Source of the DNA: Caryophanales bacterium UBA1423
Lineage (GTDB): Bacteria; Bacillota_I; Bacilli_A; RF39; UBA660
Direction: 5' to 3'
Length of the DNA stretch: 18,815 bases
NCBI GenBank assembly: GCA_002304855.1
Contig: DBPJ01000004.1
Coordinates: forward strand, 1,048 to 19,862
The translations under genes and the position numbers were made by a program. The notes beneath the pieces are model-generated. The model saw nothing but the letters and a program-made list of their open reading frames with translations, was not told where the DNA came from and did no database searches. Of the stretch, positions 1,027 to 5,052 are shown piece by piece. Position 1 is the stretch's first letter, and the number at the start of each line of letters is the position of its first letter.

Positions 1027-1770
1027 TTAATAATAAACATTTTTCAAATATAGGCCTTGTGGTTCAGCAGTAATTCCAGCTGTTGAACGATCCTTTTTAT
1101 CTAAAATAGCAATAATATCTTCACTTTTAATTTTTCCTTCACCAACTTGAATTAATGTACCAACCATATTTCTAACCATATATCTTAAAAAACCAGTGCC
1201 CACAAATGAAAGTGTTATCTTTTGATTATCTCTAATATCTCTAATTAAATTAGTTTGCGTTATCTTTCTAACATAATCGCTTTTTTCATCATCAGTTGAA
1301 GTAAATGACTTAAAGTCATGCTCACCCTCTAAATATTTTAAAGCTCTTTCAATAGCTACTATATCTAATGATTTATTATATTGATAGACATAATTTCTTT
1401 CTAAGGGATTATATTCACCTAAATTGATGATATAAATATATTCTTTTGCCTTAACATTATATCTAGCATGAAAAGTATTAGATACTTCTTCAATCGATTT
1501 AATATAGATGTCATCAGATAGCAATGAATTTAAACCCATTCTTAATTTATCAACTGTAATATCCATCTCTAAATCAAAATGGGCTTTTTGATTAATGGCA
1601 TGAACATGTGCATCAGTTCTACCTGACCCTACTAATTCAACTTTAGTACCACCGCTTATCTTTTTTAATGCTTTTTCTATTTCCCCTTGTACTGTTCTTT
1701 GTTTAGGTTGTTTCTGAAAACCTTTAAAATTAGTACCATCATAACTAAAAACCATTAAATAACGTTTCAT
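1027..1770 (-). CDS. truA: tRNA pseudouridine(38-40) synthase TruA
   Basis: TruA converts uridines 38-40 of the tRNA anticodon arm to pseudouridine. The 247-residue product has the family length. It shows YDGTNFKGFQ near residues 10-19, the catalytic motif GSGRTDAHVHA with Asp53, and a later RYMVRNMVGTL block. An upstream in-frame ATG exists at 1776, but the ATG at 1770 is preferred. It gives a spacing of about 9 nt from GAGGT, matches the family start, and forms an ATGA 4-bp overlap with the ecfT stop. Placing truA after ecfT is the usual order in Bacilli. It is the last gene of the ECF transcription unit. Confidence 0.95.
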   Translation of the reverse strand: MKRYLMVFSYDGTNFKGFQKQPKQRTVQGEIEKALKKISGGTKVELVGSGRTDAHVHAINQKAHFDLEMDITVDKLRMGLNSLLSDDIYIKSIEEVSNTFHARYNVKAKEYIYIINLGEYNPLERNYVYQYNKSLDIVAIERALKYLEGEHDFKSFTSTDDEKSDYVRKITQTNLIRDIRDNQKITLSFVGTGFLRYMVRNMVGTLIQVGEGKIKSEDIIAILDKKDRSTAGITAEPQGLYLKNVYY

Positions 1771-2525
1771 AACCATACTACCTCACTTAAAATAAAAATT
1801 ATTAATATCATCATATGTAATACTACTATATTATTGTCATATGTCGTCCATTGATTTAATCGATAATGGGTTCTTGTTTTATCATACCCATATAATCTTA
1901 TTTCCATAGCATCAGCTAAATCATCAGCTCTTTTAAAAGATAAGATAAATAATGGAACTAACATCGTTGTTAAAGCTAATATTTTACCTCTAATATTACT
2001 ATATTTAAAATCAATACCTCGACTAGCTTGTGATTTCAATATCTTATTTGCTTGCTCAATCACATTAGGAATAAATTGAATAGCTAAAGATATAATTAAT
2101 GCTAATTGTTCAGTTGAAATCTTAAATAACTTTAACGGCCATAATAACTGTTCTAACGCATACGTAATATCTTTGGGTTTAGTAGTCATCGTTAAGATTG
2201 AAGTATACACTACTATTAATATTATTCTACTACTTGAACTAACTGCTAATGTTATATTTTTAGTTACTAAGTAATCAAATATAAAAATAAAAATAATTAA
2301 CCATTTCAATCCTAAGATACTATTTATTATTAAAGTTATTGGTATTCTAGCTATTATTATTAATATGATAATAAATGCCAATAACAATCCAAATAACCAG
2401 TAATTATTAATAAATAATAACGTAATTAAGAAAAGTAGGGTACAAATAATTTTACTTATTGGATTTAAATTATGAATTGAGGATTGAATGGGATAATATT
2501 TACCACAAATAATACTATTGAACAT
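1767..2525 (-). CDS. ecfT: ECF transporter transmembrane protein EcfT
   Basis: EcfT is the membrane coupling subunit that links the two EcfA ATPases to exchangeable substrate-binding S components for vitamins or metals. The 252-residue product is highly hydrophobic, with about five to six membrane segments between residues 23 and 115, around 185-198 and at 232-250. The family block LEQLLWPLKL (124-133) is present, followed by the cytosolic coupling region. The two Ala-Arg-Gly coupling motifs are modified here to S168-R169-G170 and I209-R210-L211; both arginines remain. The start overlaps the ecfA2 end by 11 bp. No S component gene is in the window, so the transported substrate cannot be inferred. 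Confidence 0.92.
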   Translation of the reverse strand: MFNSIICGKYYPIQSSIHNLNPISKIICTLLFLITLLFINNYWLFGLLLAFIIILIIIARIPITLIINSILGLKWLIIFIFIFDYLVTKNITLAVSSSSRIILIVVYTSILTMTTKPKDITYALEQLLWPLKLFKISTEQLALIISLAIQFIPNVIEQANKILKSQASRGIDFKYSNIRGKILALTTMLVPLFILSFKRADDLADAMEIRLYGYDKTRTHYRLNQWTTYDNNIVVLHMMILIIFILSEVVWL

Positions 2526-3363
2526 GTTTATACACCATCTTTATTAAATCATTTATTTCATAATATTTACCCAAATTCAATCCTTTTTTATCATAAACTT
2601 TTCGCGTAAATGCTGCTACTTTTGGTATACTGATATTATTTTCAAGTAATAATTCAATATCATTAAATACTTCATATTTAGAACCGCTAGCAATAAGTTC
2701 ACCTTTATTTAAAATATGAACAAAGTCTGCAATTTGATATAACATATCGACATCATGACTTATAACAATCACGGTTTTACGATAAAAATATTTTAATCTT
2801 CTAATTAAATTAATTAGTGATTTTCGGCCTCCATTATCTAAACCTACTGTTGGTTCATCTAAAATAATTATTTCAGGATCAAACATTAAAATAGCAGCAA
2901 TTGCAATTCGTCTTTTTTCACCGCCACTTAATTTAAAAGGATTACGATCTAAAAATGAATCATTTAATCCAACCATTTTAAGTACTTCACTAATTCGCTC
3001 ATTAATTTTTATTTTATGATGAAAATATTGCATGCCAAAAGCTAATTCTTGTTTGACAGTCGTTTGGAAAAATTGTTCTTCCGGAAATTGAAATACTAGT
3101 CCCACTTTATAACGCAATAAATTTATTTTATGTTTATCAATATTATGATCAACAATAAAATCGCCAACCATAACTCTACCATTAGTAGGAAGTGATAATC
3201 CATTAATCAATTCAACTAATGTTGTCTTACCACTACCTGTTGGTCCAACAATCGCATTAATTTTATTTTTAGCCATCTTTAAACTAACCTCTTTTAATAC
3301 TTCATTAGCAATTGGGATATTTCGGTTGTAAGTAAAGCAAACATTATCAAAAACTACGTCCAT
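2515..3363 (-). CDS. ecfA2: ECF transporter ATPase EcfA2
   Basis: Second ABC ATPase of the ECF transporter, which forms a heterodimer with EcfA1 and powers EcfT. The 282-residue product has a complete set of catalytic motifs: Walker A GPTGSGKTT (Lys46), Q-loop FQFPEEQ (Gln92), signature LSGGEKRR (145-152), Walker B with catalytic Glu170 in ILDEPT, and H-loop SHD (His203). The C-terminal region after residue 215 is typical of CbiO-type ATPases. The ribosome binding site is GGTGGTGA just upstream. The gene is separated from ecfA1 by the CvpA-like gene, whereas ecfA1 and ecfA2 are normally adjacent. Confidence 0.94.
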   Translation of the reverse strand: MDVVFDNVCFTYNRNIPIANEVLKEVSLKMAKNKINAIVGPTGSGKTTLVELINGLSLPTNGRVMVGDFIVDHNIDKHKINLLRYKVGLVFQFPEEQFFQTTVKQELAFGMQYFHHKIKINERISEVLKMVGLNDSFLDRNPFKLSGGEKRRIAIAAILMFDPEIIILDEPTVGLDNGGRKSLINLIRRLKYFYRKTVIVISHDVDMLYQIADFVHILNKGELIASGSKYEVFNDIELLLENNISIPKVAAFTRKVYDKKGLNLGKYYEINDLIKMVYKHVQ

Positions 3364-3385: not shown

Positions 3386-4228
3386 TTATTCTTCTAATAT
3401 TTGAATTAATCCATCAATATCAAAATCAGTTAAATTATTTTCATCAACAATACGCCTTAATAATTGTTCAGTTATTATATTTTCTTTATACAAATCTTTA
3501 ATTATTTTAAATATTTCTGTATCTTTATATTCTTCAATGTTGATTTGGTTAATATCATATTTTTTTAGAAATTCTTTACTACCTTCAACAATTAAATCTT
3601 CGTCAATAATACCAGTTTCAAATAATGATTCAAGTATCTCCTTAACTTTAGGATCATTAAGCAATTCATCTAAATCATCGTATTGATCAATATTATTAGA
3701 TATTTCAATTCCATTTCTAATGATTGTATGTAATTCATTGCCATAACTATATAATGAATAATTAAGACGATAAAATGACTTTAATAATAATGAATTTTCA
3801 AAATAATGAACATTTAAATATTGCGTAAAACTAGTGGTAAATCCAATAATACTAATCAAAAATATGACTTCAAAAACATTTATAACCATTCCCCCATAAG
3901 GGAAGAAATTCTTATCAACTACTATTATTTCTTTTTTCTTTAAAATAGCGAAAATAATTTTAAAAAGAAGATAGAAAATTATAAATGTTACAAACATACC
4001 AACGGTATTAGCTATTTTTGTTTTGAAAAATAAGAAAACTGGTTCATTTATATTGATATTTATGTTATCAATAATTATTTTTCCACCAAAACTTTTTAAG
4101 AGAAAGGCAAATAACATTGATAATGAGAAAATAACTAAATTATATAATTCTTTTAAAAAACCATTACGATATCCAATATAACCAGTTATTAATATTAAAA
4201 TCAAAATTATTAAATCTACCCAAATCAT
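3386..4228 (-). CDS. CvpA-like membrane protein with C-terminal helical extension
   Basis: This gene encodes a 280-residue membrane protein. Four hydrophobic segments are visible at about residues 3-19, 29-46, 76-96 and 114-134. The GYIGYRNGF element after segment 1 and the overall pattern resemble the CvpA (colicin V production) family, which usually has 160-180 residues. The extra C-terminal part (about 150-280) is acidic and probably helical. It contains a degenerate two-copy repeat: residues 197-213 (EILESLFETGIIDEDLI) align with 241-257 (KIIKDLYKENIITEQLL) at a spacing of 44. The start has a strong GAGGTGGGGAT site, 14 nt after ecfA1. Position between ecfA1 and ecfA2 is unusual. Function is unknown; the family assignment is by pattern only. 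Confidence 0.7.
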   Translation of the reverse strand: MIWVDLIILILILITGYIGYRNGFLKELYNLVIFSLSMLFAFLLKSFGGKIIIDNINININEPVFLFFKTKIANTVGMFVTFIIFYLLFKIIFAILKKKEIIVVDKNFFPYGGMVINVFEVIFLISIIGFTTSFTQYLNVHYFENSLLLKSFYRLNYSLYSYGNELHTIIRNGIEISNNIDQYDDLDELLNDPKVKEILESLFETGIIDEDLIVEGSKEFLKKYDINQINIEEYKDTEIFKIIKDLYKENIITEQLLRRIVDENNLTDFDIDGLIQILEE

Positions 4229-4242
4229 ATCCCCACCTCAAT

Positions 4243-5052
4243 TTATGGCCATATTTTATCTATCATTTCATCCATATCTAACATAACATCATCAATTAAG
4301 CCATAAAATTTCAATTTAAGTGATAGCTCTATCATAAAAGGCATCCTTAAACCAATGTTAGTTAATATTTTATCTTTAGTTAATACTTCTAAAGTTTTAC
4401 CTTCAACCACTATTTCTCCATTATTAATGACTACCATTCGATCACCATATAAAGTTTCTTCTAAATCGTTAGTCACATTTATAATCGTTAAATTATTATC
4501 CTTATGTAATTTAACTAATAATTTTAATATTTCTTCTCTTTCAGTTGGATCAATCATCGCTAAAGCATCATCTAAAATAATGACTTTAGGTTGCAATACT
4601 AAGATAGAGGCTAACGCTACTTTCTGTTTTTCGCCACCACTTAACTTATGAGGCTCACAATCTAAAATATTATTAATATTTAATAAATCAGCTACTTTGA
4701 TTATTTTCTCATCTATTTCTTTAACATTATAATTTAAATTTTCTAAGGTAAAAGCAATATCATCTCTAACTGTTGCCCCAATAAATTGATTATTAGGATT
4801 TTCAAAAATAACACTTACTTTTTGTCTTATGTCCATTAAATTTTCTTTAGTAACTAATAAATCATCAATGACAATTCTACTATCAGTATGATTTAAACCA
4901 ACTAATAATCTAATTAAAGTTGATTTGCCACTACCATTTGGTCCTACAATTGAAAGCCATTCGCCTTCTTTAATGATCAAATTAAAATCTTTAAATATTT
5001 GATGATTACCATAACTAAAGTTTAAATCTTCAATTACTATTATATCTTTCAT
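4243..5052 (-). CDS. ecfA1: ECF transporter ATPase EcfA1 with altered catalytic residues
   Basis: First ABC ATPase of the ECF transporter. From the chosen ATG at 5050-5052 the product has 269 residues. GAGGTGA lies just upstream, and the promoter at 5078-5106 excludes the longer reading from 5115. Intact motifs are Walker A GPNGSGKST (37-45), signature LSGGEK (137-142), and MIDP in the D-loop. Three catalytic positions are changed: Q-loop FENP (Glu84 instead of Gln), Walker B ILDDAL (Asp162 instead of Glu), and H-loop TND (Asn195 instead of His). I confirmed all three at codon level. The gene is full length with a normal C-terminus (MPFMIELS), so it does not look like a decaying pseudogene. 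One of the two ATP sites of the EcfA1-EcfA2 dimer is probably weak or inactive. Confidence 0.92.
   Translation of the reverse strand: MKDIIVIEDLNFSYGNHQIFKDFNLIIKEGEWLSIVGPNGSGKSTLIRLLVGLNHTDSRIVIDDLLVTKENLMDIRQKVSVIFENPNNQFIGATVRDDIAFTLENLNYNVKEIDEKIIKVADLLNINNILDCEPHKLSGGEKQKVALASILVLQPKVIILDDALAMIDPTEREEILKLLVKLHKDNNLTIINVTNDLEETLYGDRMVVINNGEIVVEGKTLEVLTKDKILTNIGLRMPFMIELSLKLKFYGLIDDVMLDMDEMIDKIWP

Follow-up and report, generated by a model that had tools for sequence, protein, structure and literature searches.

Loss of Catalytic Residues from One ATP Site of the ECF ATPase Pair in a Family of Bacilli

Introduction

Is an ECF motor that has lost the catalytic residues of one ATP site an evolved asymmetric machine, a transporter falling out of use, or an artifact? 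The question is raised by a stretch of 18,815 nucleotides from Caryophanales bacterium UBA1423 (hereafter, the window), for which the initial annotation reported that EcfA1, one of two paired ECF ATPases, lacks three catalytic residues and likened the pair to asymmetric ABC exporters. ABC exporters with one degenerate site include TAP, CFTR, TM287/288, and BmrCD, and PatAB also figures in this literature; among degenerate-site ABC transporters an altered signature in the partner half is common, not universal. To judge by resemblance, the window family may belong with uncultured gut Bacilli of reduced genome, RF39 among them.

RF39 and other uncultured gut Bacilli are described as having small genomes and auxotrophies for vitamins and other compounds, in a paper whose main text, in the parts available, does not contain the word "transporter" (PMC6784871). 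For ECF motors in general, a 2023 structural paper, in its accessible parts, names the sequence in which the two sites bind and hydrolyze ATP as a point yet to be settled (PMC10368641). We found no description of degenerate ECF ATPases in the accessible portion of the full-text literature on ECF ATPases and degenerate sites, in which few subscription journals are covered.

Results and Discussion

The ECF Locus

The module lies on the minus strand within a ribosomal protein cluster whose genes run, in downstream order, rplQ, SDR (short-chain dehydrogenase), ecfA1, CvpA-like, ecfA2, ecfT, truA, rplM, and rpsI; the names rplQ, rplM, and rpsI were assigned by reading the sequences. The features are listed in Table 1. 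Two ECF-type ATPases adjoin an EcfT gene, as in group II ECF motors, and gene order, EcfT, and paired ATPases with a C-terminal extension are all shared with the L. delbrueckii folate/pantothenate EcfA-EcfA'-EcfT motor (5d3m, 8bmp-8bms), which the window EcfA1 also resembles in sequence. The best models for the two ATPases are TIGR04520 and TIGR04521, respectively, and both scores fall below the NCBI cut-offs of 315 and 330 bits, so automatic annotation relying on these models may miss the names. Of the 137 family loci described below, just two, the window and its congener L062, were seen to have the CvpA/colicin V gene between ecfA1 and ecfA2. In EcfT, the second coupling motif is xRL-like in most family members and the first is SRG in 57; the class loci end before the second motif, which makes this a comparison within the family, with no outside control.

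Table 1. Positions of the ECF module and its motifs in the window
Feature	Position	Strand	Evidence
ecfA1, ECF ATPase 1, 269 aa, ATG at 5052-5050	4243..5052	-	TIGR04520 277.9 bits; PDB EcfA1 E 5e-59; AlphaFold pLDDT 91.9
EcfA1 Q-loop position: Glu84, GAA; canonical Gln	4801..4803	-	codon reading and alignment
EcfA1 Walker B catalytic position: Asp162, GAT; canonical Glu	4567..4569	-	aligns with L. delbrueckii EcfA1 Glu169
EcfA1 H-loop position: Asn195, AAC; canonical His	4468..4470	-	codon reading and alignment
EcfA1 Walker A GPNGSGKST (37-45), intact	4918..4944	-	sequence; G42 and K43 invariant in 38 diverse family members
EcfA1 signature LSGGEK (137-142), intact; would face EcfA2-held ATP	4627..4644	-	sequence
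EcfA1 C-terminal motif P238...W268; outlives ATP site in relatives	4249..4341	-	profile and remnant alignments
ecfA2, canonical ECF ATPase 2, 282 aa; K46, Q92, D169, E170, H203	2515..3363	-	TIGR04521 290.4 bits; motif reading
EcfA2 signature LSGGEK, residues 145-150	2914-2931	-	sequence
ecfT, transmembrane coupling component; coupling motifs SRG (first), IRL (second)	1767..2525	-	PF02361 103.3 bits (cut-off 25)
CvpA/colicin V production family membrane protein, between ecfA1 and ecfA2	3386..4228	-	PF02674 53.9 bits
truA, downstream boundary of ECF cluster	1027..1776	-	TIGR00071 203.7 bits

The three substitutions and their codons were read exactly as first reported; the interval given for them, 4467..4803, is right at its upper end and begins one base too low. 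The EcfA1 Walker A and signature are intact, as had been noted, and so are Walker B Asp161 and D-loop Asp168; the fold is predicted with confidence, the mean pLDDT of 91.9 being based on a 31-row alignment. All EcfA2 motifs proved canonical, again in agreement with the initial annotation. The nearest homologues of known structure, which are EcfA1 chains of ECF transporters, hold Q, E, and H at the three columns (best three alignments). The window pair thus lacks the group II complement of Q, E, H, and LSGG in both subunits, EcfA1 having E/D/N, and shows what defines a degenerate-site ABC protein, namely catalytic residues lost in one ATPase half and kept in the other. The residues agree with the proposal that the site formed by the EcfA1 Walker A, Walker B, and H-loop with the EcfA2 signature (site 1) is degenerate, and that the other (site 2, formed by the EcfA2 Walker motifs with the EcfA1 signature) is canonical.

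The Triplet among Close Relatives

Do close relatives carry the exact E/D/N triplet as a conserved unit? They do not. In 121 rows comprising the query and the best 120 of 3,027 homologues, the residues at the Q, E, and H columns are EEH in 62, EDH in 24, QEH in 6, DEH in 5, EDQ in 3, and EDN in 2 (the query and its own entry), the remaining triplets being rarer. An EcfA1 tree was built with FastTree from 263 proteins, 239 of them family-side tips, with the motif columns omitted; many of its deep nodes are weak. EDN occurs among the 239 tips in the window alone. The window EcfA1 groups with P0005 (EEN) and with P0003 and P0007 (DEN), and then with P0004 and P0006 (EEH); nearby are P0008 and P0011 (DEH) and three normal proteins, P0021, P0028, and P0036 (QEH). 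Asn195 is thus common to the nearest group, Glu84 is part of a broader tendency, and Asp162 is peculiar to the window lineage. A conserved triplet was accordingly rejected, and relatives with normal residues, named at the outset as grounds for abandoning the idea, do exist, six in the best 120 homologues and three of these near the window branch. Their position is close and weakly supported, and is compatible both with one Gln loss followed by regains and with many losses.

The minimum number of changes on the tree is at least 19 for Glu, at least 28 for His, and at least 5 for Gln (25 losses if no regain is allowed). All three residues are lost in 44 of the 239 family-side tips, against 24 expected under independence, a comparison from which relatedness has not been removed. 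In another genus (g158), a locus fetched later, L215, is EDN and its near-twin L124 is EDH; since they differ at the H-loop (Asn versus His) at an EcfA1 dS of 0.20, the change there is recent, and EDN probably arose in that genus a second time, separately.

One-Sided Degeneracy across the Family

The family set comprises 137 EcfA1 loci, from 142 match rows over 386 genomes; an adjoining EcfA2 was found for 135, and these pairs span 69 of the 150 genera searched. The loci were picked by similarity to the window EcfA1, which biases the set toward well-kept genes, single-sequence E-values missing the most degraded ones. Gln is kept in 3 of the 137 EcfA1, Glu in 78, and His in 67; no EcfA1 has the full set, and in 47 not one of the three residues is left. 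Lys43 persists in 136 (the exception being a partial frame), as does Asp161 in 136, and four columns, G42, K43, D161, and P238, do not vary in a profile of 38 diverse EcfA1. In the 135 EcfA2, Lys is kept in 118, Gln in 89, Glu in 110, His in 66, and the first signature Gly in 11, leaving the signature that faces site 1 altered at that Gly in 124 pairs.

Taken by site, the losses are nested: alterations affect site 1 in all 135 pairs and site 2 in 84 (one of these, congener L062, counted solely for a split EcfA2 frame), and site 2 is never altered alone. With the Q-loop ignored, the EcfA1 His or part of the EcfA2 SGG is still lost in all but one of the 135 pairs. In the congener (genome G001, L062 3162-4396), EcfA2 is split over two overlapping open frames, through either an assembly indel or a real break. 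Mutual exclusion between the EcfA1 His and the EcfA2 signature was considered and dropped, the signature being kept in just 10 of 135 pairs, from few lineages.

Loci from other families of the class served as a control. All 24 are canonical in both subunits, which bears out the premise that ECF pairs normally have two complete sites; they are the best-matching loci and not a random draw, from a search of 296 genomes in which 174 matched (10 of them of the window's family). The contrast between 24 of 24 class loci with Q, E, and H and 137 of 137 family loci missing at least one of them in EcfA1 is beyond chance. Judged from sequence, it is the degeneracy of site 1, and not the exact E/D/N triplet, that is a conserved trait of the window family.

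Erosion of EcfT and Shrunken ATPases

EcfT was sought at the cluster, where its profile matched beside all 51 pairs with an intact site 2 and beside 54 of the 84 with an altered one. Among the 30 EcfT-negative pairs, the EcfT slot is filled by a membrane protein of 194-234 aa in 16, and ecfA2 adjoins truA in 11; 2 of the rest stop at a contig end and 1 is ambiguous. L226, L158, and L164 were left unclassed for the EcfT slot.

A deeper set of 30 loci was fetched from 36 other genomes, and 28 more degraded EcfA1 were retained from it; L270 and L291 were left out because a different C-terminus marks them as non-orthologues of EcfA1. GK[ST] is readable in 26 of the 28 and missing in L265 and L290. 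In 15 further genomes, picked because their best EcfA1 match was at or near background, the region beside truA was inspected. Nine of these loci (L298 and L300-L307) hold an EcfA1 remnant of 155-217 aa, beside an EcfA2 of 184-205 aa in seven and of about 270 aa in two (L304 and L307). The P-loop is present in the EcfA1 remnants of L300 and L304 and missing in the other seven; it was found in none of the nine partner EcfA2, and LSGG in none of the eighteen proteins of these loci. The pair in L299 is longer (the fetched stretch ends within its EcfA1), and EcfT is present in L297. In L296 and L308 (the latter with an incomplete truA) nothing separates the SDR gene from truA, the entire module having disappeared, and in L294 and L295 nothing was found beside truA in the fetched stretch. 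Short tandem EcfA1/EcfA2 remnants beside truA can be seen at L300 372-920, L301 496-960, L303 456-956, and L305 2771-3421, together with their neighbours.

The match of the EcfA1 remnants to the EcfA1 profile covers mainly the stretch that starts at position 84-165 and runs through to the C-terminal end. Conservation is at least 91% at each of P238, F239, L243, S244, L247, Y250, and W268 across 176-177 sequences, remnants included. The remnant of L301, which has no Pfam match, has 42 homologues at E 1e-5, of which 34 are exactly 149 aa long and 40 are of 149-153 aa, and 18 columns are invariant in 38 aligned homologues. AlphaFold predicts its fold with a pLDDT of 92.2 and a pTM of 0.85, and the first Foldseek match in the PDB is the L. 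delbrueckii EcfA1 chain 8bms_A (E 5.7e-7). The near-fixed length, invariant columns, and predicted fold indicate that such remnants are not random leftovers.

S-Components and Other ATPases

Without an S-component the window motor would not be a transporter. None was detected in the window genome, which is 68% complete, with PF12822, PF07155, PF02632, PF09515, or PF07456; congener G001 (96% complete) has one PF07456 protein. PF12822 matched in 4 of 25 family genomes (the window's own included in the 25) versus 14 of 15 class genomes, the four comprising a short match inside a 2,406-aa frame (G018) and three PF07456 proteins. The corresponding counts are 1 of 25 (partial, in a longer frame) versus 12 of 15 for PF07155, 1 of 25 (partial, below cut-off) versus 8 of 15 for BioY, and 0 of 25 versus 12 of 15 for ThiT. 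Of the 386 family genomes, 67 encode a PF07456 protein; G001 is one of these and the window's incomplete genome is not. One genome, G313, has two such proteins, on two contigs (C27 and C28).

We infer that the PF07456 proteins are S-components of the family's ECF motor. EcfT is present in all 60 pairs from PF07456-positive genomes versus 45 of 75 from negative ones (Fisher 1e-9 on raw counts). On the tree the link comes down to 5-6 supported independent contrasts (8-16 if unsupported branches are included), and no test was significant, so that the tie between PF07456 and the state of the module is a lead. A second intact ECF ATPase pair was not found in the window genome, incomplete as it is; the other matches are FtsE, two exporter-type ATPases, a PhnT/ProV-like protein, and SufC, with one weaker match (L008) untyped.

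Selection on the ATPase Genes

Does the pattern amount to plain decay, the module being unused, both ATPases drifting to pseudogenes, and the three changes having no meaning? Much about the family invites this reading. Its genomes are small (listed sizes 0.4-1.9 Mb, not all of them complete), the usual S-components are hardly detected, motifs are lost stepwise, EcfT is eroded or missing at the cluster in 27 of the 30 EcfT-negative pairs, and in 2 of the 15 inspected truA loci the module has disappeared. The coding sequences speak otherwise. Within genera, 212 EcfA1 or EcfA2 comparisons were made by the Nei-Gojobori method, which gives rough values on such AT-rich DNA; the 200 with dS below 2.2 have a median dN/dS of 0.185, and 175 fall below 0.4. 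Eleven exceed 0.5, up to a maximum of 0.89 (genera g31, g94, g124, and g169), as drift would have it. Even in the 25 comparisons (10 genera) in which neither locus has EcfT, dN/dS is 0.116-0.552, with a median of 0.253. At a dS of 1.16, the window and its congener give 0.247 for EcfA1 and 0.243 for EcfA2 (congener frame split).

The ATPase genes are thus mostly under purifying selection, which is not the mark of pseudogene decay. None of the 142 match rows contains an internal stop, and the mostly low dN/dS, together with the near-fixed length and confident ECF-ATPase-like fold of the L301 remnant family, argues against pseudogenes. We therefore regard plain decay as improbable. The original verdict of evolved asymmetry in place of decay holds insofar as the ATPases are mostly under purifying selection; it is too simple insofar as the window resembles an early stage of a wider erosion.

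A Probable Motor with Two Unequal Sites

We think it likely that the window encodes an ECF motor with two unequal ATP sites, at an early stage of a family-wide erosion. Site 1 retains the residues that bind phosphate and magnesium but not the Gln of the Q-loop, the catalytic Glu, or the His of the H-loop; with catalytic residues lost and binding residues kept, it most likely binds ATP and hydrolyzes little or none, and would hold ATP and the dimer together. Site 2, which is complete, would carry out hydrolysis, and each cycle of closing and reopening the motor would cost one ATP. In the family at large, vitamin S-components of the usual kinds are scarcely found, site 1 is changed in each of the pairs, and changes or losses reach site 2 and EcfT in many; both ATPase genes persist all the same, in some genera as short proteins that lack a complete ATP site. 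Read as a sequence in time, this would be a gradual erosion. Several points sit awkwardly with the reading of the window as an unequal-site motor: its EcfA2 signature is intact, unlike that of most of the family; Asp162 is found in no other close relative; no S-component turned up in its incomplete genome; Q/E/H relatives lie close by in the tree; and replacing this Glu in L. delbrueckii EcfA alone (see below) stops a canonical motor.

The comparison with known systems cuts both ways. Degenerate-site ABC exporters are like the window in that, in one half, the Walker B Glu is replaced by Asp or some other residue and the switch residue is not His, and like most of its family in that the partner signature is altered too. 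They are unlike it in that the window has an importer-type ECF motor with an intact partner signature (EcfA2 LSGGEK), and unlike its relatives, in which loss proceeds to both sites and EcfT. The L. delbrueckii EcfA is the orthologue of EcfA1, Phe13 and Glu169 matching the 8bmr_A numbering. In the accessible parts of the structural paper, the EcfA site kept ATP and EcfA' held ADP in an ATP-supplied structure (PMC10368641); the site degenerating in the window family is thus the one that already lags in L. delbrueckii.

Alternatively, both sites might hydrolyze, with Asp162 substituting for Glu and Glu84 and Asn195 tolerated, in what would be a slower canonical ECF transporter. Asp is indeed the commonest replacement of Glu (35 of the 59 non-Glu residues among 137 EcfA1), and the window has kept its Walker A, Walker B Asp, and signature. 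Yet three catalytic positions are altered together, the Glu has become Asn, Gly, Lys, Ser, Cys, or His elsewhere in the family, and the facing EcfA2 signature is altered in most pairs. As far as the available text of the same paper goes, Glu-to-Gln in either EcfA or EcfA' of L. delbrueckii stopped ATPase activity and transport, both glutamates being needed, and the change in EcfA alone abolished ATPase activity and folate transport (PMC10368641). Loss of the Glu is therefore not harmless in a canonical motor, and the window EcfA1, with neither Glu, His, nor Gln, departs from the L. delbrueckii motor in just this respect. Hydrolysis at both sites seems to us quite improbable.

An assembly error or a variant private to one strain is scarcely credible, even with a source assembly in 19 contigs and Asp162 confined, among close relatives, to the window's own protein cluster (P0002), since the cluster has 5 member sequences on 8 contigs and a representative identical to the window protein (members being clustered at 90% identity, all three residues need not occur in each), Asn195 is common to P0003, P0005, and P0007, and Gln is gone from 134 of 137 family loci. 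Error was thus rejected for Glu84 and Asn195, the nearest relatives also having Asn195 and a residue other than Gln at 84; Asp162 is the one residue to which the suspicion of an isolated variant still applies.

A Possible Second Role for the ATPase Pair

If the unequal-site motor is the start of the series, what keeps the genes at its end? We see an even chance that the EcfA1/EcfA2 pair has a second job that needs neither ATP hydrolysis nor EcfT, and that it is kept for this as uptake fades. What would be retained is at first ATP/Mg binding and the C-terminal domain and then the C-terminal half only, giving the small ECF-derived pair beside truA, whose EcfA1 resembles that of L. delbrueckii by fold; the window would stand at the first step. 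Where EcfT and both sites are gone, the C-terminal domain might, at a guess, act as a scaffold or regulator.

Natural alteration has struck the same ECF site in all 135 pairs, across 69 genera, and so bears on the question of the order of events at the two sites. The intermediates, which range from a single degenerate site to clusters without EcfT, allow one to ask which features an ABC motor can do without and what the ATPase pair is still needed for.
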